Assembly: GCF_946886895.1 (NCBI RefSeq)
Contig: NZ_CAMPJO010000006.1
Span: 1 to 64,000, forward strand
DNA length: 64,000 nucleotides
Direction of reading: 5' to 3'
Origin: an uncultured Marinobacter sp.
GTDB taxonomy: Bacteria > Pseudomonadota > Gammaproteobacteria > Pseudomonadales > Oleiphilaceae
A model generated the notes under the pieces. The model was given only the letters and a program-made list of their open reading frames with translations. It did no database searches and was not told where the DNA came from. Positions 17,572 through 64,000 of this stretch are shown here, one piece after another; within the stretch, counting starts at the first letter, position 1; each line of letters begins with the position of its first letter. The position numbers were made by a program, and so were the translations under genes.

Positions 17572-18593
17572 GAGAGTGGCCTCGCCGTTGGTTTGCCCTG
17601 ATCGGGCTTGCGGGTGGCGGCCAGGATCTCGAGCGCGTGCCGGCGCTTTTGAGGGTCGTGAATATCAACGGTAAACATCAGCTCATCCACCTCAACGGTC
17701 GCCAGAAGCTGTTCCAACTGCCGCCCGATGGCGGACGCATCGCCCAGTAACTGCAGTGCCAGGAAATCCATCACGCTCGCCTTTTCCCCGGCGTTCCACA
17801 GGCCGTCCATGGAGTCCACGGGCGGCTTCATCCACAGCGGCTGCCCCCGGAATAGCGCAAGAATGCGCTGATAGCTCGTGGTCGCCAGGTGTTGTGCCTC
17901 TTCCATGGAATCCGCGGGCACCGCCGGAACCGCCAGCATGGCATAGGGTCTGTCGAGCTGTGCGGAAGGCTGGAAATTATCCCGATAGACTTTCAGGGCT
18001 TCCCGGTAGAGCCGGGGGGCGAAATGCCCGGCAAAGGCGTAGGGCAAACCGCGCATGGCGGCGAGCTGAGCGCTGTAAAGGCTCGACCCCAGCAGCCAGA
18101 TGGGGACGTTGGTGCCGGCGCCGGGGATGGCCTTCACCGGCTGGCCGGGCTGTAGCGGGCCAAGCAGGGACTGCAAACGGGCGACGTCTTCCGGGAACTG
18201 CTCCGCACCCAGTCCGTCCCGCCTGAGGGCGCGGGCGGTGACCGGATCGGTCCCGGGGGCGCGCCCCAGGCCGAGATCAATCCGGCCCGGGTACAGGCTG
18301 GCCAGGGTGCCGAACTGCTCGGCAATGACCAGCGGCGGGTGGTTGGGGAGCATGACGCCGCCGGAGCCAACCCGGATGGCTTCGGTCTGCCCTGCAATGT
18401 GCCCGATCAGAACCGACGTGGCGGAACTGCTGATGCCCTCCATATTGTGATGCTCGGCCAGCCAGAATCGTTTGAAGCCGAGTCTTTCCGCCCTCTGGGC
18501 GTAGGCCACGCTGTTGGCCAGCGTGGTACCAACGGAATCGCCTTCACGAACGGAGGCCAGTTCAAGCAGCGAGTAATCAGGATAGTCAGACAT
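17568..18593 (-). CDS. LLM-class flavin-dependent oxidoreductase
   Basis: This 341-residue luciferase-like monooxygenase-family protein has the TIM-barrel N-terminus ([22 protein letters not shown]) and FMN-site segments ([36 protein letters not shown]). It belongs to the short alkanal-monooxygenase-like (YhbW-type) group, whose reactions are largely unassigned. The ATG at 18593 preceded by GGGAG is favoured; an upstream in-frame start at 18752 gives a cysteine/arginine-rich leader unlike the family. It forms a pair with the hydrolase gene downstream. Confidence 0.85.
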
Positions 18594-55133: not shown

Positions 55134-55148
55134 ATAAGAAATACTTAT
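55134..55148. promoter_or_regulatory. LysR-type operator (T-N11-A) in the divergent promoter
   Basis: ATAAGAAATACTTAT is a dyad of arms ATAAG and CTTAT with a 5-base centre, matching the T-N11-A frame. It lies 32 bases from the LysR start and 77 bases before the aldehyde dehydrogenase ATG, as expected for a LysR recognition site. Confidence 0.55.
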
Positions 55149-55224: not shown

Positions 55225-56667
55225 ATGGCACAGTCGCACGCGCTTTACATCGGTGGAGAGTGGATCGCGGGGGAAAACGTCGCCCTGCCGAACCAGAATC
55301 CGTCGGACCTTAACGACATTATCGGTTATTACGACCAGGCAAGCGCCGGCCAGGTCAAGCAGTCTGTCAGGGCTGCCCTGGAGGGCCAGAAAGCATGGGC
55401 CGCCACTGGCCTTGAGGCCCGTTACAGCGTATTGATGGCCATTGGTGACGAGCTCATTGCCCGCAAGGATGAACTGGGTGAGCTGCTGTCCCGGGAAGAG
55501 GGTAAACCGCTGGCGGAAGGCAAGGGTGAGGTCTATCGCTCAGGCCAGTTCTTCCACTATTACGCGGCCGAAGTGCTGCGGCAGATTGATGACCGGGTTG
55601 CTTCTGTACGGCCCGGCGTTGAAATAGAAACCCGCCGAGACCCGCTGGGTGTCGTGGGTGTGATCAGCCCCTGGAATTTCCCCATGGCGACCGCGGTCTG
55701 GAAGATTGCCCCGGCCCTAGCCTTCGGCAACGCGGTGGTATTCAAACCCGCGAATCTGGTGCCGGCAAGCGCCTGGGCGCTGACCGAGATCATCAGCCGT
55801 CAGGGACTGCCTGACGGTGCCTTTAACCTGGTCACAGGCAGTGGTCGCGAGGCCGGTGAAGCGTTAATTACCAGCCCCGATATCCACGCAATCACCTTTA
55901 CCGGCTCCCTGGAGGTTGGGCGTCGCGTGGCTGCTGCCACGGCCACCAACCTTGTGAAATGTCAGCTTGAGATGGGCTCCAAGAACGCCCTGATCGTTTT
56001 GGAGGATGCGGACGTTGACCTGGCGGTGGAGGCTGCGTTCGCCGGGGCCTATTCCGGCTCCGGGCAGAAATGCACCGCCTCCTCCCGACTGATTGTTGCC
56101 GATGCGGTACACGATGAGTTCGTGGCGAAGCTGACCTCAAAACTCGCAGCGGCAACCGTTGGCCCGGCGCTGGATGGAAGCACCGTGATTGGGCCGATTG
56201 CCAGTGAAAGCCAACTGGCGGCTAATCGTCGCTGGGTGGATGTGGCGCTGCAGGAAGGCGCAACCTTGGCCTTCGGCGGTGATGACGTGGATGTCGGGCG
56301 GGAAGGCCACTACATGCAACCGGTGCTGTTTACGGACACCACCAACGACATGGCCATCAACCGTGACGAAGTGTTCGGGCCGGTGGCTTGTGTTATCCGG
56401 GTTCCGGATTACGAAAGTGCCCTGACTACCCTGAACGATACCAACTACGGCCTGACGGCCGGCCTGATGACCCGTTCCCTGCAGCGTGCCAGTGACTTCA
56501 AGGCCCGAGCCGAAACTGGCTGCGTGATGGTCAACCTGGCCACGGCCGGCACCGACTACCACGTGCCGTTTGGTGGTCGTAAGGATTCCAGTTTCGGCCC
56601 TCGTGAGCAGGGACAATACGCCCGGGAGTTCTACACCGTGGTTAAAACCTGCTACACCAAGGCTTGA
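55225..56667 (+). CDS. Aldehyde dehydrogenase (semialdehyde type)
   Basis: This 480-residue enzyme has Asn151 (PWNFP), Glu249 (LEMGSKNALIVL) and catalytic Cys283 (GQKCTASSRLIV). The LEMGSKN and GQxCTASSR motifs recall alpha-ketoglutarate-semialdehyde (2,5-dioxopentanoate) dehydrogenases, but the substrate is not fixed by this. GAAGGAGG precedes the ATG. First gene of the operon regulated by the divergent LysR. Its role would be the last oxidation of a carbon skeleton freed by the other enzymes. Confidence 0.85.
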   Translation: MAQSHALYIGGEWIAGENVALPNQNPSDLNDIIGYYDQASAGQVKQSVRAALEGQKAWAATGLEARYSVLMAIGDELIARKDELGELLSREEGKPLAEGKGEVYRSGQFFHYYAAEVLRQIDDRVASVRPGVEIETRRDPLGVVGVISPWNFPMATAVWKIAPALAFGNAVVFKPANLVPASAWALTEIISRQGLPDGAFNLVTGSGREAGEALITSPDIHAITFTGSLEVGRRVAAATATNLVKCQLEMGSKNALIVLEDADVDLAVEAAFAGAYSGSGQKCTASSRLIVADAVHDEFVAKLTSKLAAATVGPALDGSTVIGPIASESQLAANRRWVDVALQEGATLAFGGDDVDVGREGHYMQPVLFTDTTNDMAINRDEVFGPVACVIRVPDYESALTTLNDTNYGLTAGLMTRSLQRASDFKARAETGCVMVNLATAGTDYHVPFGGRKDSSFGPREQGQYAREFYTVVKTCYTKA

Positions 56668-56678
56668 GGAATCCCACC

Positions 56679-57680
56679 ATGTCACAGTCTGTTCTGACCA
56701 TCGACGGCCTACAGTATTCCAACTGGTCGAGGGCTATCTTCGAGCAAATGCGGGAGGGGGGTGTTGATGCCGTACATGCGACCCTGGTGTATCACGAAAA
56801 CTGCCGAGAAACCCTGCTGCGTTTTGGGGAGTGGCAGCGCCGCTTTGAGGAACATGCAGACCTGATCATGCCGGTGCGGGAAGCCTCGGATATTGAGCTG
56901 GCGCGGGAAAGCCATCGAGTGGGTGTTTTCTTCGGTGCCCAGAACTGCTCACCGATCGAGGATGATATCGACCTGGTAGCCATTATGCGCCGGCTGGGGC
57001 TGCTGATCATGCAGCTCACCTACAATAACCAGAGCCTTTTGGCCTGTGGCTGCTACGAAACGGAAGACAGCGGCATTACCCGGTTTGGCCGGCAGGCGAT
57101 CCGGGAAATGAACCGGGTGGGGATGTTGGTTGATATGTCCCACAGCGCTGAGCGCTCTACGCTGGAGGCCATCGAGTTGTCAGAACGGCCGGTGATTATT
57201 TCACACGCCAATCCTGCGAGCTTTCATCCGGCCAAGCGTAATAAGTCTGACACGGTGTTACGTGCCATTGCGCAAAGTGGTGGCCTCCTCGGCTTCTCGG
57301 TGTATCCGTTTCATCTGAAGAACGGCCCGGACTGCACGCTGGATGATTTCTGCGGCATGGTGGCTGATACCGCCGAGCTGATGGGGATTGATCACATCGG
57401 GATGGGCACGGATTTATGCCAGGCCCAGCCGGAATCGGTGCTGACCTGGATGCGCAATGGCCGCTGGACCAGGGCCATGGACTACGGCGAGGGCAGTCAG
57501 GGAAATGCAGGCTGGCCGTCACCGCTGACCTGGTTCAGCGATAACCGACACTTTCCCGCCATTGTTGAGGGGTTGCGTCAGAAAGGTTTTAACCACGAAG
57601 ACATCGAGAAGATCATGGGCCGGAACTGGCTCAGGCAATTGACCGAGGGCACGCGGCCAGCCTCAGGCACCGTGTTCTGA
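56679..57680 (+). CDS. Peptidase M19 (membrane dipeptidase) homologue with altered metal site
   Basis: The 333-residue protein belongs to the renal dipeptidase family: DMSH (His155), ISHANP (His176), KRNKSD and GMGTD (Asp245) match the C-terminal metal and substrate residues. But the N-terminal HxD motif is absent; its place reads TIDGLQYSNW (residues 7-16). The bridging Glu appears as Gln88 (FGAQN). It therefore cannot form the usual binuclear zinc centre. It has no signal peptide. M19 homologues of this type occur beside dimethylglycine-catabolism genes in Pseudomonas (from memory), hinting at amine-compound degradation. GAGGA lies before the ATG at 56679. Confidence 0.8.
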   Translation: MSQSVLTIDGLQYSNWSRAIFEQMREGGVDAVHATLVYHENCRETLLRFGEWQRRFEEHADLIMPVREASDIELARESHRVGVFFGAQNCSPIEDDIDLVAIMRRLGLLIMQLTYNNQSLLACGCYETEDSGITRFGRQAIREMNRVGMLVDMSHSAERSTLEAIELSERPVIISHANPASFHPAKRNKSDTVLRAIAQSGGLLGFSVYPFHLKNGPDCTLDDFCGMVADTAELMGIDHIGMGTDLCQAQPESVLTWMRNGRWTRAMDYGEGSQGNAGWPSPLTWFSDNRHFPAIVEGLRQKGFNHEDIEKIMGRNWLRQLTEGTRPASGTVF

Positions 57681-57717
57681 GTACTCACTGTTCCAACAAC
57701 AAAAACAGGTAATCGTC

Positions 57718-59337
57718 ATGACAAATGCAGCCAGCTCCACCGCGATCCCCGAAACGGGCATCAGGCGCTTCGGCGACCCGATTGTTCTGGTCCTGAGCGT
57801 CGGTTTCATCCTGCTTTTTCTTGGTTTATCACTGTATGACATCGAGTGGACGGCCGGTCTGATCAGCGAGGGCTTTGCCTGGACGGCCAAGTACCTCGGT
57901 TCCTATTTTCAGCTTCTGTTGCTGCTCACCTTCCTTATCGGTTTGGGGGTGGCGGTTTCGCCTGCGGGCAGCGCCAAGGTTGGCAATATGGAATCGCCGG
58001 AGCTGAGTACGTTCAAGTGGCTGGCCATCATCATGTGTACCCTCCTTGCCGGCGGGGGCGTTTTCTTTGCGGCCGGCGAGCCGGTGTATCATTTCGTGGT
58101 TACGCCGCCGGTGTTTGATACCGCAGCGGGCACGGCAGAGGCGGTGGCGCCGGCCCTGGCGCAATCGTTCATGCACTGGGGGTTTCTGGCCTGGGCGATC
58201 CTGGGAACGCTGTCTGCCATCGTTCTGGCTCACGCTCATTATGTGAAGGGGCAGCCGCTGCAGCCAAGAACCCTGTTGTACCCGGTGTTTGGTGACCGTG
58301 TGATGCATGGGTGGTTCGGCGCCTGTGTCGATTCCGCCTGTGTGATCGCTGTTGTTGCCGGAACGGTCGGCCCGATCGGGTTTCTTGCGACCCAAGTCAG
58401 TTTTGGGTTGCACGAACTGTTTGGTTTCCCCGAGGGCTATGGCACCCAGTTAGTCATTCTGGTGGTACTTGCCGCCGTTTACGTGACCTCCGCCATGACG
58501 GGCATTCACCGTGGTATTCAGATGCTCAGTCGCTTCAATGTGTTTCTTGCCCTGGCGATCGCCGCCGTCATCTTTGTTTTCGGCCCCACACTGTTCCTGA
58601 CCAATGCCTACACCCAGGGGTTCGGTGAATACATCAGCTCTTTCTTTGCCATGGCAACAGTGACCAGCGTGACGGCCGAGGGCTGGTGGATGCAGTGGTG
58701 GACGGTATTCTTCTTTGCCTGGTTCCTCGGTTATGGACCGTTGATGGCCATTTTCGTCGCCCGTATTTCAAGGGGGCGTACCATCCGGCAAATGATTCTT
58801 GCGGTAGGGGTGATGGCGCCGGTGGCTACGACGATCTGGTTTACCTTGCTGGGTGGGTCCGGCATTTTCTATCAGCTCACCGGGGTGATTGACCTGGCCG
58901 AAGCCCTCAATAAGTTCCAGTTTGACGTGGCAACACTCACCATTGCCGAAGCCTTGCCAGGCGGATCCATGATGGCACTTGCGATCCTGTTGCTGACCAC
59001 CATTTTTGTGGCTACCACTGGTGATTCCATGAGTTACGCCATTGCCGTCGTCAGTGCCGGTCACGATGAGCCGGAGCCCGTTGTCCGTGCCTTCTGGGGT
59101 GTGGCTATGGCACTGATGGCGGCGGTGTTACTCTACATGGGAGCAGGTCAGATCAGCGCCTTGCAGCAGTTCATTGTGATCACTGCGATACCGGTTTCGC
59201 TGATTCTTCTGCCATCGCTCTACATCGGCCCCAAATCAGCCTACGCTATGGCACGGGAGCAGGGTATCGTTGCTGCCAGGGGCGAAGTCGCCCTCGTTGG
59301 TGCAACCACCGGTTCGTCCGGGCACTCGGGAGTCTGA
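57718..59337 (+). CDS. BCCT-family transporter with unusual substrate residues
   Basis: This 539-residue transporter has 12 helices of the betaine-choline-carnitine family, with the signature around WWTVFFFAWFLGYGP (327-341) and VARISRGRTIRQM. By motif alignment with BetP, box residues W189 and W194 are kept (W154, W159), while Y197 becomes Leu162 and W374 becomes Phe336. The flexible GxGxG stretch reads LLAGG (109-113). The substrate is therefore probably not plain glycine betaine. No long C-terminal osmosensing tail is present, pointing to nutrient uptake. Confidence 0.85.
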   Translation: MTNAASSTAIPETGIRRFGDPIVLVLSVGFILLFLGLSLYDIEWTAGLISEGFAWTAKYLGSYFQLLLLLTFLIGLGVAVSPAGSAKVGNMESPELSTFKWLAIIMCTLLAGGGVFFAAGEPVYHFVVTPPVFDTAAGTAEAVAPALAQSFMHWGFLAWAILGTLSAIVLAHAHYVKGQPLQPRTLLYPVFGDRVMHGWFGACVDSACVIAVVAGTVGPIGFLATQVSFGLHELFGFPEGYGTQLVILVVLAAVYVTSAMTGIHRGIQMLSRFNVFLALAIAAVIFVFGPTLFLTNAYTQGFGEYISSFFAMATVTSVTAEGWWMQWWTVFFFAWFLGYGPLMAIFVARISRGRTIRQMILAVGVMAPVATTIWFTLLGGSGIFYQLTGVIDLAEALNKFQFDVATLTIAEALPGGSMMALAILLLTTIFVATTGDSMSYAIAVVSAGHDEPEPVVRAFWGVAMALMAAVLLYMGAGQISALQQFIVITAIPVSLILLPSLYIGPKSAYAMAREQGIVAARGEVALVGATTGSSGHSGV

Positions 59338-59340
59338 ATC

Positions 59341-61071
59341 GTGGCAGTCCGGTCAGATATAAAGTCCGAGTTGACGTTACGTCCCTCTGACCAGGTCATG
59401 AATCTGGTTCGGCTCGGAAGCCTTCATGCCAGCCGGCTAAGCTTCTCCCGCAGCCTCGTTCGCCAGATGGCCCGGGAGGACTGGACAGTAACAAACGTGC
59501 GTTTTGAGCTTGATGCCGAGGGCCACGGTATTGTCATTTACCGTCTGAAAACACCTCATCATACCTACCATGGGGTGGTGTTTTCCCAACAACTGGCCCC
59601 GGAGCGTCGGTCTGACCGGGTGATTGCCGAAGCCTGGGACGTGACCTTCGCCCTGTTGGAAGGGGAAGTGGAAGACAGCCTGCTGGAACAGATGGCGGCG
59701 AACGTACCGCTGCAGGAAGCCGGCCGGCAGCATCCTCGGTTGCTGGTGCTGTCCCGTGCCAACAAAAGCCTGAGAAATTTCAGCCATTTTGTTGATGCCC
59801 TGGCGGCAGGTCGGCAACCAGACCCAGCCTGGTTAACCCGGGTTGGCTATCTTTACCGCACTACCGCAGTCTATGGTAATGGCAAATTTGGCATTGCTGA
59901 TTACGCTCGTCTGCAAAACAACCCGGATTTCAACCGGCCTTTTTCGGCACAGATGTTTGCGGTTTACCTGTTGCGTCACTTTTCGGTCCAGCAGGTGGAG
60001 CATCTCGCCCAATGCCGTTCGCCGGAACGTGCCGTTGCCCTGCACCCGTCGTTGCAGCGTTACCTTGGCATTGGTAACTCCACGGGTCTTGGTATGGCGC
60101 CCTTTCTGATCAACCACCCCCAACTGATCCAGCAATGGGTTTGTTGTCGTGAGCGGGCACTGGCTTACGCCCGTGAGCAACTGCCCAGCGAGGCCAGCCG
60201 TCGCGAACTTCTGTCGTTATTGAGCCGGGCGCACTGGCACTTTGCGGAGACTGTGACAGAAGATGCTGAACAGACCCACCGCAATGAGGGCACTGTTGTC
60301 TCCATTGAGTCGGTGATCGAATGGCTGCAAAGGACCCCGGCCACGCCCGGCCTCTGGAACGATTTGCTGGCCTGGGCCGACGAGCAATGCTCGCTGGAGG
60401 CACAGGAATTGATTAATACGCTGTTGATTGAACTTTATCCAGACCTGATCGACACGGTGGAAAACCAGCTTGGCTGTGAGGAAATACTCGAGCTTCAGCC
60501 GGAAATGCGCGCCGTGACCCTGAAGCAGCACATCGAGACCCGCTTCGCCTGGGCGCTGGATTATGATCCCAAAGACCCCGACCACCAATACTGGTTCTGG
60601 TACCGCTCGGCGGAAAAAGAGGAGCCAAGGCTGGGCGTACGCTCGACTGAACCCGGGGTCGAGAAAGAGATGCCTCTGGCTATCGGGCCCCGGATTTACC
60701 GGACGCATCAGCTACTGGATGCCTTTCTGGACCGCTGTCCCCGTGGCTCCGTGGTGGAGTTCCTGATGGCGCATCCGCGCCAGAAGGAATGTGTGCGTCG
60801 TATCCAGACCATGGCGAATACTCCCTACGGTGAAATTCAGGCGAACCTCTGGCACAGGGACATGAAGCCCATACACTTGCTGCGGACCAAGCTGTCGTTT
60901 TTCGGCGCCAGCCGGTTTGATCCCAAATCTGATCGTTGGGTCAGGGTAACCCTGTTCCAGGGCGCCCCCCTGTTTTGCGAACTGTTCAGTGATCATGGCA
61001 CCGACAAGGCACGCCTGGCGGAGCTGGACGACTGGAGTTTTCCCGTACAACCCGATCTGGATGCGCAATGA
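59341..61071 (+). CDS. Unrecognised 576-residue protein in the BCCT/dipeptidase operon
   Basis: I do not recognise this family. The protein has no signal peptide and no membrane helix, so it is cytoplasmic. Notable stretches are YGNGKFGIADY, LGIGNSTGLGMAPFLINHP (glycine-rich, perhaps a binding loop), and a C-terminal part with NLWHRDMKPIHLLRTK and KLSFFGASRFDPKSDRWV. Acidic and aromatic residues are common (DYDPKDPDHQYWFWYR). It starts at a GTG three bases after the BCCT stop and its stop overlaps the next ATG, so it is firmly part of the operon. It is a candidate for the key enzyme of the pathway. Confidence 0.65.
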   Translation: MAVRSDIKSELTLRPSDQVMNLVRLGSLHASRLSFSRSLVRQMAREDWTVTNVRFELDAEGHGIVIYRLKTPHHTYHGVVFSQQLAPERRSDRVIAEAWDVTFALLEGEVEDSLLEQMAANVPLQEAGRQHPRLLVLSRANKSLRNFSHFVDALAAGRQPDPAWLTRVGYLYRTTAVYGNGKFGIADYARLQNNPDFNRPFSAQMFAVYLLRHFSVQQVEHLAQCRSPERAVALHPSLQRYLGIGNSTGLGMAPFLINHPQLIQQWVCCRERALAYAREQLPSEASRRELLSLLSRAHWHFAETVTEDAEQTHRNEGTVVSIESVIEWLQRTPATPGLWNDLLAWADEQCSLEAQELINTLLIELYPDLIDTVENQLGCEEILELQPEMRAVTLKQHIETRFAWALDYDPKDPDHQYWFWYRSAEKEEPRLGVRSTEPGVEKEMPLAIGPRIYRTHQLLDAFLDRCPRGSVVEFLMAHPRQKECVRRIQTMANTPYGEIQANLWHRDMKPIHLLRTKLSFFGASRFDPKSDRWVRVTLFQGAPLFCELFSDHGTDKARLAELDDWSFPVQPDLDAQ

Positions 61072-61835
61072 AAGTCTCATTCAACGAATTGCAGGGCATC
61101 GGCCGCAAAGCCTTTATCGGTATTGGTTTCGCCGAGGGTGACGCCATTGATGCCGCCGAAATGGTGGCCTGGATGGAAGCCCATGGCCTTGGCGGCGTTG
61201 ACGCACTGAAAAAAGGCCTGCGGTTTCTTTTGACCGAGGATCAGGATGAATCGCCGACGCTGATCTACCAGGATGCCGACTTCAGTGTGCTGGATGCGCA
61301 TAACCACAGCATTCTGGGGAATGCCAGCCTCGCTGTGGAGCTGGGCTACGCCCGGGCCCGGGCCAGGGGGCTATCCATCACCAAGGTTCGTCATTGCCAT
61401 AATCGCATCCTGATCATTGGTTACCTGTCCAGGCTCGCCCGCCGGGGTATGAACGTGACCGCCTTCTGGCGCAACGCGCACAACCCGTTGGCGGAGCTTG
61501 TGGTCGGGTTCAGGGCCGGCCACCCGGTTCCCGAAATCTGCTTCTACAGCCTGGAGGAGGTTCCTGAGGACACTGAGAAAAACGACGGTATCACCCTGAT
61601 TATGGCGAACCATGTCGACTTGCTGCCAAGCCTGCGCTCAGAGTATGCGCTGACCAACCTGATGCGCCAGACCGAGGAAGACCTGGAAAAGCAACGGAAC
61701 CGGGCGCTGGTTGAAGGTATGGAGGTGGACGATGAGCTTTGGCATAACCTCAAATCCCTGGCCGACCGACTACTGGTTGAGGCGACCGATGCGTCCCGGA
61801 GCGGTGCTGGTGCAGGTACCAGCGACAACGACTGA
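61068..61835 (+). CDS. DUF3726-like protein
   Basis: The 255-residue protein starts MKVSFNELQGIGRKAFIGIG and contains EGDAIDAAEMVAWMEAHGLGGVDAL, a pattern I associate with DUF3726. The early region recalls the N-terminus of the LDH2/malate dehydrogenase fold, but no nucleotide motif is clear. No signal peptide. Its ATG overlaps the stop of the 576-residue protein (ATGA), so the two are probably made in equal amounts and may form a complex. Confidence 0.6.
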   Translation: MKVSFNELQGIGRKAFIGIGFAEGDAIDAAEMVAWMEAHGLGGVDALKKGLRFLLTEDQDESPTLIYQDADFSVLDAHNHSILGNASLAVELGYARARARGLSITKVRHCHNRILIIGYLSRLARRGMNVTAFWRNAHNPLAELVVGFRAGHPVPEICFYSLEEVPEDTEKNDGITLIMANHVDLLPSLRSEYALTNLMRQTEEDLEKQRNRALVEGMEVDDELWHNLKSLADRLLVEATDASRSGAGAGTSDND

Positions 61836-61849
61836 ACAGAGAGCTATCG

Positions 61850-62248
61850 ATGACTTCCAACACCACCATTACGCCGATTGCAACGGAGCTGCCACGCTCA
61901 AAAGCGCCCCTGGAATGGGCGGTTAGCGCCAACGGCATTCTTTTTACCGCCCAGATTCCGATCGATGCCAGTGGCCAGGTGGTTGCTGGTGGTATTGAGG
62001 CCCAGACGCGGCAAGCCATGGAAAACCTCAGGCACACGCTGGACTGTGCCGGGGGTGGCATGGCCAGCCTCACTCAGGCCCTTATTTATGTGACCGACCG
62101 GGACCATCTCGGAACGGTGAATCTGGTCTACGCGGAATACGTCGAAGCGCCTTATCCCAACCGGGCAGCGGTTATTGTCTCAGGGTTTGCGCGGGAAGAG
62201 ATGCTGGTCGAGATTGTAGCTTACGCTGCCGTTGGCGCGGCCGTATAA
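61850..62248 (+). CDS. RidA/YjgF family protein
   Basis: The 132-residue protein has the RidA fold marks: LFTAQIPID-like strand (GILFTAQIP), QTRQAMENLRHTLDCAG, KALIYVTDRD-like strand and PNRAAVIVSGF. RidA proteins hydrolyse reactive enamines and imines that arise from PLP or amino-acid oxidising enzymes. It lacks the exact RPYPA Arg signature of archetypal RidA (here YPNRAAV), with the Arg one position off. Its presence at the end of this operon suggests that an imine is formed in the pathway. Confidence 0.82.
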   Translation: MTSNTTITPIATELPRSKAPLEWAVSANGILFTAQIPIDASGQVVAGGIEAQTRQAMENLRHTLDCAGGGMASLTQALIYVTDRDHLGTVNLVYAEYVEAPYPNRAAVIVSGFAREEMLVEIVAYAAVGAAV

Positions 62249-62917: not shown

Positions 62918-63026
62918 TCTCGGTACTGGTTTGTTCGGCTGAGGACCATGCGAACTGATTCAGAACGACCGGGGCAGCAAAGGCAATCACCAGGGCTGCA
63001 ACAAATGCAGACATCATAACCTTCAT
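62901..63026 (-). CDS. 41-residue membrane protein of the formate dehydrogenase operon
   Basis: Reading the minus strand from ATG 63026 to a TGA at 62903-62901 gives MKVMMSAFVAALVIAFAAPV followed by a short polar tail, that is one transmembrane helix. The start overlaps the stop of the gamma subunit (ATGA), with GGGAGGG upstream, and the 3' end overlaps the TusA-family start. It is too short for routine calling and could be an extra small subunit or assembly factor of the dehydrogenase. Confidence 0.65.
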   Translation of the reverse strand: MKVMMSAFVAALVIAFAAPVVLNQFAWSSAEQTSTESVRLD

Positions 63027-64000
63027 GAAGACCCTCCCTTACCCTGTTTGGATTCGACTTCGGCCACCCACAGATCGTGGTGCTGGCGCGCCCATTCCAC
63101 ATCAACCTGGCCGTTACCCATGGCATCGAAAGCACCTTCCATGCCGACCGAACCTATGTAGATGTGCGCAATAATGGCCACCATCATCACGAAGGCGACA
63201 ATGGAGTGCCAGATGTTGGCAAGCTGCATCTCCTCGTGGGGCGCAAGCCTGGTCGGAAGACTTGTTCCAAGAATGCTGTTGATCACCGCAAAAGTGTCCG
63301 CAAACATCGGCAGTTGGAACGGGAACAGCAGCGACAGCCCGGATAACGATACGGAAAAGCCCATTATCATCACTGTCCAGAAAACGATCTTCTGGCCAGC
63401 GTTGAATTTCTTGGCGGATGGATGGCCTTTGCCAAGAATGCCGCCGCCTGCCTTGAGCCACTGCCAGTCCAGTTTGTTGGGAATATTGTGGGCAACCCAC
63501 ATGACGAACGTCATGATCAGACCCAGCATAAAGGCCCAGGCAACGTTGTTGTGGAGCCACTTTGAACCGGCCGCCAGCGTTGCAAAAACCTCTGGCCCAA
63601 GGACCGGAATCAGGAAGCTTCGCCCCATCAGAGTGATCAGACCGGTGAGACCCAAGGCAATAAATGAACCGGCCAGCAGCCAATGGCCAAAGCGTTCGAT
63701 AGCCTTGAAGCGCTGGATCGTTGTGCCGGCAGGTCCGCCATCAATTTTGATTCTACCCCGAACGAAATAGAACACCGCCAGTAGCGCAATAATGCCGAGG
63801 ATGGCACTACCGCCGTAGGTAATTACCGGTCCTTCGCGAAGTTTGTACCAGAGTATGCCGCCGTCCTGGATCAGAACCCCGGCAGCCGGTCCCCGTACTT
63901 GCGTGGTGGGTTCTATCTTGTTGTAGCGGATGGCGCGCCAGACATCCGAGTCCGAAACGCCGCCCTCGACCCCCAGTGGAGCCGTAATCGGGGCTGCGTT
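63023..64000 (-). CDS. Formate dehydrogenase gamma subunit (cytochrome b556), partial at the window edge
   Basis: At least 325 residues are read on the minus strand up to the window edge. An N-terminal periplasmic part (SDSDVWRAIRYNK, LIQDGGILWYK) is followed by a helix near YGGSAILGIIALLAVF and the cytochrome b core with His ligand candidates at RFGHWLLAG, LHNNVAW, WHSIVAF and AHIYIGSVG. It anchors formate dehydrogenase in the membrane and passes electrons to quinone. The 5' end lies beyond 64000; the upstream catalytic and iron-sulfur subunit genes are outside the window. Confidence 0.88.
   Translation of the reverse strand, partial: NAAPITAPLGVEGGVSDSDVWRAIRYNKIEPTTQVRGPAAGVLIQDGGILWYKLREGPVITYGGSAILGIIALLAVFYFVRGRIKIDGGPAGTTIQRFKAIERFGHWLLAGSFIALGLTGLITLMGRSFLIPVLGPEVFATLAAGSKWLHNNVAWAFMLGLIMTFVMWVAHNIPNKLDWQWLKAGGGILGKGHPSAKKFNAGQKIVFWTVMIMGFSVSLSGLSLLFPFQLPMFADTFAVINSILGTSLPTRLAPHEEMQLANIWHSIVAFVMMVAIIAHIYIGSVGMEGAFDAMGNGQVDVEWARQHHDLWVAEVESKQGKGGSS

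Follow-up and report, generated by a model that had tools for sequence, protein, structure and literature searches.

A widespread bacterial operon, probably for homarine uptake and breakdown, in RidA and LDH2 forms

Introduction

Trigonelline is an isomer of homarine (N-methylpicolinate, a pyridinium betaine), and its degradation by the tgn route involves a monooxygenase, an aldehyde dehydrogenase (ALDH) and a hydrolase. The homarine operon itself is reportedly named homABCDER and is said to be present in Rhodobacterales and SAR11. Two articles report homarine as a diatom osmolyte that is rapidly taken up by Ruegeria pomeroyi (PMC12817926, PMC9723723), and according to the first of them this bacterium draws homarine down within 10 h. 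N-methylglutamate dehydrogenase (Mgd) participates in homarine catabolism, as stated in PMC13390433, which cites Ferrer-Gonzalez et al. 2026 (Nat Microbiol 11:1531) as the pathway paper. Here, we analysed a six-gene operon in a 64,000-nucleotide stretch of DNA (the window) from an uncultured Marinobacter sp. (contig NZ_CAMPJO010000006.1, positions 1 to 64,000 of the forward strand). Its genes, located at 55225-62248 on the plus strand, encode an ALDH, an M19-like protein, a BCCT transporter, a 576-residue protein called P576, a DUF3726 protein and a RidA-family protein.

We consider it probable that this operon serves uptake and breakdown of homarine, and it is most likely the homarine operon in a form that carries RidA. 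Homarine was among the candidate substrates listed in an earlier reading of the DNA alone (the sequence-only reading), which regarded the gene set as undescribed. The latter is doubtful, since a pathway for homarine catabolism has been published, as cited in PMC13390433; the pathway of the operon is thus probably described already, and the RidA form and the chemistry of P576 and DUF3726 are not necessarily covered there. What is new here is the exchange of RidA and LDH2. Mgd, which takes part in the published pathway, probably adjoins the operon in six relatives and is absent from the window; the operon of the window carries RidA instead of LDH2, together with a BCCT transporter. In our literature text search the phrase 'homarine catabolism' was found only in PMC13390433, and neither 'homABCDER' nor 'homarine degradation' occurred in the texts checked.

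Results and Discussion

The operon is real and widespread

The neighbourhoods of P576 were examined at 144 loci, namely 8 plasmid loci, 80 loci on genome contigs and 56 other genome loci, and genes within 7.5 kb of P576 were counted as neighbours. The 80 contig loci are the best 80 of at least 584 P576 relatives and are biased to close ones. The complete set of six partners was present in 53/80 of them, in 2/8 plasmid loci and in 1/56 other genome loci; the gene set described in the sequence-only reading is thus conserved in other genomes. The tightest association is that of P576 with a DUF3726-family gene, found in 144/144 loci. In 143 of them the two reading frames overlap or lie at most 40 nt apart (1001 nt in the remaining one, L080), and in two loci they are fused (L004:11947-14391, 814 aa; L129:9049-11655, 868 aa). 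M19 accompanies P576 in 132/144 loci, always together with DUF3726 (8/8 plasmid, 74/80 contig and 50/56 other genome loci), and several of the 12 loci devoid of it are on short contigs. The remaining partners are less constant: ALDH was found near P576 in 101/144 loci, LysR in 92, BCCT in 74, RidA in 60 and LDH2 in 35. The association of P576 with DUF3726 and M19 exceeds chance.

P576 was present in 53/385 sampled alphaproteobacterial and 16/369 sampled gammaproteobacterial genomes, each sample including its operon-bearing centre, and in 52/54 genomes of the genus to which Ruegeria arenilitoris belongs. The alphaproteobacterial carriers include five genomes of 1.2-1.6 Mb whose loci have a GC content of 28-36%.

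Some loci have other arrangements. A second form, LysR-P576-DUF3726, is found at L060:8909-12408, with no M19 or ALDH recognised nearby; a locus of a Ruegeria genome (L131, genome G001) resembles it and lies at a contig end, and the same genome also carries the full form. On pSymB of S. meliloti (L005:9716-13390) the trio P576-DUF3726-M19, at 30% identity, is followed by genes that we read by eye as those of a polyamine-type ABC transporter. In a low-GC alphaproteobacterial genome the trio and a sarcosine oxidase have as their neighbour a gene similar to the ectoine hydrolase gene doeA (L120:7013-8185, 470 of 613 bits).

RidA and LDH2 exclude each other

Two types of proteins that can handle imines occur next to P576: RidA hydrolyses imines, and members of the LDH2 family reduce them, e.g., the piperideine-carboxylate reductase 1wtj. 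RidA and LDH2 were never found together (0/144 loci; RidA in 60, LDH2 in 35, neither in 49), and among the 75 loci of L001-L088 with enough room the RidA/LDH2 table reads 0, 54, 8 and 13. RidA predominates in the contig loci (55/80, with BCCT in 66/80), which are nearly all gammaproteobacterial. The Ruegeria form (L163, L165) consists of five genes, ALDH-M19-P576-DUF3726-LDH2, with LysR divergent to them; it would fit the operon name homABCDER and may be identical with the published gene set. At the Marinomonas locus L075, the position of RidA, at the end of a BCCT-M19-ALDH arm, is taken by an LDH2 gene. The LDH2 proteins of L031, L048, L054 and L086 share 36-40% identity with the type found in Ruegeria.

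Since both types handle imines and exclude each other, the simplest reading is that of one shared imine with two exits, which suggests either N-methylglutamate or 2-oxoglutarate and methylamine as products. As the exclusion tracks bacterial class and the LDH2 set is of mixed subtypes, it is suggestive and no proof. The imine and semialdehyde steps that the sequence-only reading had proposed are plausible chemistry, and of the two it is the imine that is independently indicated by this exchange.

A putative N-methylglutamate dehydrogenase follows the operon in relatives

In six related loci of Halieaceae and other marine gammaproteobacteria (L026, L027, L031, L043, L054 and L076) the operon is followed by genes of a four-subunit flavoenzyme. 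Its five testable beta subunits are 67-83% identical to the beta subunits of gmaS/Mgs-like clusters and 38-46% identical to other members of the family, sarcosine oxidases included; this division has 100/100 support, with a program warning of long branches. Among the reference clusters, GmaS (type III glutamine synthetase) beside L231 scored over its cut-off (662 vs 469.6), L229 and L232 were assigned by coordinates, and the glutamate-synthase-like genes were read as Mgs, a name that NCBIfam does not give them. Judged from this clade, the neighbouring tetramer is probably the Mgd (MgdABCD) of methylamine users, which adjoins the operon in the six relatives and is not encoded in the window. Sarcosine oxidase as its identity was rejected: the clade is separate, and the scores stay below the cut-offs (soxB 456.7-478.2 of 529, soxA 860-871 of 1164), as do those of the gmaS-linked reference tetramers.

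Among 40 gammaproteobacterial genomes the Mgd type was found in 8/11 without RidA in the operon versus 3/29 with RidA. In the gammaproteobacterial sample (n = 369), with kinship and genome size uncorrected, Mgd was present in 5/16 genomes with P576 versus 10/353 without it, and GmaS over cut-off in 12/16 versus 24/353. This sample was drawn around one operon-bearing centre; when the centre is removed the counts are 5/15 and 11/15. The narrower statement that Mgd without GmaS occurs only together with P576 was dropped: it held in the 40 chosen genomes (6/11 without RidA, 0/29 with it) and failed in the wider sample (G474, G606). On an Acinetobacter plasmid (L203:4603-17672), Mgd-type subunits with folD and purU are located beside an annotated tgnABC.

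Similarity to the trigonelline route and nearby formate dehydrogenase genes

In one metagenome bin, of Arenicella, the operon has a tgn-like cluster of five genes as its neighbour (L046:1338-6382); the proteins of this cluster are 37-59% identical to those of the annotated cluster (tgnA, tgnB, tgnC) of Acinetobacter sp. PK01. The tgn pathway and our operon have in common a similar proposed substrate and an ALDH step, but the ALDHs are only about 30% identical. No two-component flavin monooxygenase of the tgn type was found among the six genes of the window operon with Pfam and NCBIfam, and the sole tblastn match of TgnB in the window (17841-18569, 22% identical) is far from the operon.

Just downstream of the operon, and convergent to it, are formate dehydrogenase genes (63023-64000 on the minus strand, gamma subunit over cut-off). 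The same arrangement was found in another Marinobacter (L010:18000-21506, FDH3 beta over cut-off), while the alpha subunit scored over its cut-off near the operon in Halomonas (L013) and upstream of the operon in L038. Such genes would suit a formate-releasing step.

Features of the operon proteins

All seven open reading frames (ORFs), i.e., those of the six operon genes and of the LysR gene, are intact, with an ATG or GTG start, a terminal stop and no internal stop (Table 1). The gaps between ALDH and M19, M19 and BCCT, and BCCT and P576 are 11, 37 and 3 nt, P576 and DUF3726 overlap by 4 nt, and RidA follows after 14 nt; the LysR gene is divergent, 122 nt upstream. The inverted repeat in front of the operon has what we take to be the shape of a LysR-type operator.

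Table 1. Positions of the operon genes, the regulator gene and the candidate operator in the window.
Feature	Position	Strand	Basis
LysR-type regulator, 294 aa	54218..55102	-	HTH_1 and LysR_substrate (Pfam)
ATAAG-N5-CTTAT perfect inverted repeat, candidate LysR operator	55134..55148	.	Sole match to the pattern in the window; between LysR gene and operon
Aldehyde dehydrogenase (ALDH), 480 aa	55225..56667	+	Pfam Aldedh, E 2.9e-151
M19-like amidohydrolase-fold protein, 333 aa, one metal site predicted lost	56679..57680	+	Pfam Peptidase_M19, E 2.8e-80
BCCT transporter, 539 aa	57718..59337	+	Pfam BCCT, E 9.8e-145; matches family profile
P576, 576 aa, large family without a name	59341..61071	+	No Pfam or NCBIfam match
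DUF3726 protein, 255 aa, LDH2-type fold without the catalytic His	61068..61835	+	Pfam DUF3726; Ldh_2 match below cut-off
RidA-family protein, 132 aa	61850..62248	+	Pfam Ribonuc_L-PSP (PF01042), E 1.5e-21

Three claims of the sequence-only reading agree with these data: a single operon with a divergent LysR gene is borne out by the ORF positions and the gaps of -4 to 37 nt, betaine-type uptake is supported by the match to the BCCT family profile, and the altered dipeptidase is real. In M19 metallodipeptidases an HxD motif, a Glu and two His form a binuclear metal site. The M19-like protein matches the family profile, but this site is not preserved: in the 126 aligned sequences whose ligand columns were read, HxD is replaced by Leu (125/126) and mostly Tyr (120/126), and the bridging Glu by Gln (126/126), while the columns of the two His, an Arg and an Asp are kept in 126/126. 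From these residues, the protein is predicted to have lost one metal site. Its nearest solved chain is 2i5g, presumably P. aeruginosa PA5396 of the dimethylglycine cluster; with this subgroup of the renal-dipeptidase family it shares the profile and the kept columns, and it differs in HxD and the bridging Glu.

The best NCBIfam models for the ALDH scored 478.5 and 469.7, short of their cut-offs of 770 and 750, the former being that of the alpha-ketoglutaric semialdehyde dehydrogenase equivalog, to which the protein does not belong by this measure. In the BCCT transporter, one stretch that has four Trp in the two best-matching solved transporters (8zw8, 8ybq) has F, F and Y at three of these positions; homarine is itself a betaine, which suits a transporter of this family. 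The RidA protein matches the family profile and has the Arg that contacts the substrate in this family (YPNRAAV aligned with YPARSCV), and its NCBIfam score (TIGR00004) was below cut-off, 67.7 of 106.

P576 belongs to a family of at least 7995 members (7995 of the 8000 scored candidates are relatives at E <= 0.001), and its closest named relatives are Marinobacter proteins with 82-91% identity. No Pfam family at the default limit, no NCBIfam family and no match among PDB sequences was found for it. A relaxed Pfam search (E up to 5) over 43 aligned members gave scattered weak families only, and a single, not convincing match for the window protein (PLD_C, E 0.17). The DUF3726 protein has the LDH2 fold as judged by our fold test, and is shorter than members of that family such as YiaK, AllD and DpkA (255 aa versus 313-361 in LDH2 structures). 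The His of the SHG motif is the catalytic residue of LDH2 dehydrogenases; it is present in 30/35 LDH2 rows and in 0/128 DUF3726 rows of the alignment (in 3 of the latter an SHG string occurs elsewhere, within the first 90 residues). The protein thus appears to be a pseudo-LDH2, which retains the fold and has lost the catalytic His. DUF3726 was not found in the literature text search.

A possible course of homarine breakdown

Several observations speak for homarine: the putative Mgd adjoins the operon in six relatives, and Mgd takes part in homarine catabolism according to PMC13390433; Mgd and GmaS co-occur with P576; RidA and LDH2 exclude each other; L046 has a tgn-like cluster next to the operon; P576 is carried by nearly all genomes of the genus of R. 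arenilitoris, and R. pomeroyi draws homarine down; and formate dehydrogenase genes are found close to the operon. By analogy with the trigonelline route, the following course can be proposed. Homarine would be imported by the BCCT transporter, with the LysR protein sensing the substrate, and its ring would be opened by P576 together with the non-catalytic LDH2-like DUF3726 protein. The ALDH would oxidise the resulting semialdehyde, and the M19-like protein would hydrolyse an N-formyl (or similar amide) group, releasing formate. What is left, an N-methyl enamine/imine of glutamate, would in this genome be hydrolysed by RidA, with 2-oxoglutarate and methylamine as the products; in the relatives that bear LDH2, the same imine would be reduced to N-methylglutamate, which Mgd would convert to glutamate. 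A more far-reaching version holds that P576 and the pseudo-LDH2 constitute a new type of N-methylpyridinium ring-opening enzyme, in a pathway that can end in either of two interchangeable ways, by reduction through LDH2 to N-methylglutamate or by hydrolysis through RidA directly to 2-oxoglutarate and methylamine; this we put forward tentatively, as a possibility with the odds against it.

Arguments against homarine and other explanations

Several observations weigh against homarine as the substrate. No oxygenase is recognisable in the operon, and P576 must supply an unexplained step. The adjacency of formate dehydrogenase genes comes without a chance estimate, and the alpha subunit in L010 scored below its cut-off. 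The window contains neither Mgd nor GmaS (tblastn, within the window) and the Marinobacter genome G002 gave no strong Mgd match, which leaves the relatives as the basis of the Mgd argument; Mgd without GmaS occurs also in genomes without P576, i.e., the two that refuted the narrower statement above, and the co-occurrence tests ignore kinship and genome size. The choice of RidA or LDH2 largely follows bacterial class, with mixed subtypes on the LDH2 side. Some neighbourhoods point to glycine betaine, sarcosine or dimethylsulfoniopropionate (DMSP) (L123, L127, L128, L119, L121, L001; partly by eye), and the copies with 30% identity in L005 and L007 have other ABC transporters.

Under another reading, the P576-DUF3726-M19 trio would serve as a general module for several N-methylated osmolytes (glycine betaine, dimethylglycine, DMSP and related compounds), and the full operon would be its version for one particular substrate. 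The trio also occurs, about 30% identical, alongside other transporters in S. meliloti (L005), Variovorax (L006) and Aminobacter (L007), and some neighbourhoods contain dimethylglycine dehydrogenase and Rieske genes (by-eye reading), with sarcosine oxidase and DmdA over cut-offs. The nearest solved M19 relative, 2i5g, presumably belongs to a dimethylglycine cluster. PMC12093977, the one article of even distant relevance that a text search for the gene set gave, reports a dipeptidase gene ahead of dgcAB in both V. natriegens and P. aeruginosa. The closest relatives, however, keep one fixed gene set (the 53/80 loci above), which points to a single principal substrate for this form, and we regard the general module as rather unlikely. 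DMSP as the substrate was set aside, since DmdA-like genes of one family were near the operon in just 4/144 loci (L001, L081, L119, L121; over cut-off in L119).

It is still less probable that the operon completes the breakdown of proline betaine or N-methylproline, where a demethylase and an oxidase encoded elsewhere would give N-methylglutamate semialdehyde, the ALDH would form N-methylglutamate and Mgd would finish the route. This chemistry would also yield N-methylglutamate, and on a plasmid of Pseudomonas sp. MPC6 (L002) a split operon lies beside a Rieske gene, FAD oxidoreductases, a second BCCT and two genes of the mandelate-racemase family; in Ruegeria L163, a Rieske-type gene is located 2 kb upstream of ALDH. 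Yet a Rieske-type homologue was found anywhere in the examined stretch in just 12/144 loci and not among the neighbours of Ruegeria L165, and M19, P576 and DUF3726 would be left without a role. A catabolic operon for peptide-like or N-acyl amino acids with a working dipeptidase is highly improbable: the Pfam M19 match and the amidohydrolase and ABC transporter genes near the Phaeobacter copy would agree with it, but the HxD ligands are absent, the bridging Glu is Gln in all 126 sequences, and the transporter here is a BCCT.

Biological meaning

If the operon does serve homarine breakdown, its genes would be a marker for homarine turnover, with P576 in 53/385 alpha- and 16/369 gammaproteobacterial genomes sampled. 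It would also imply a split between glutamate-forming and methylamine-releasing bacteria: were the two proposed ends real, the same algal osmolyte would feed glutamate in some bacteria and release methylamine in Marinobacter, Vibrio and their relatives. Finally, P576, the representative of a large family without an assigned domain, would gain a concrete candidate reaction.

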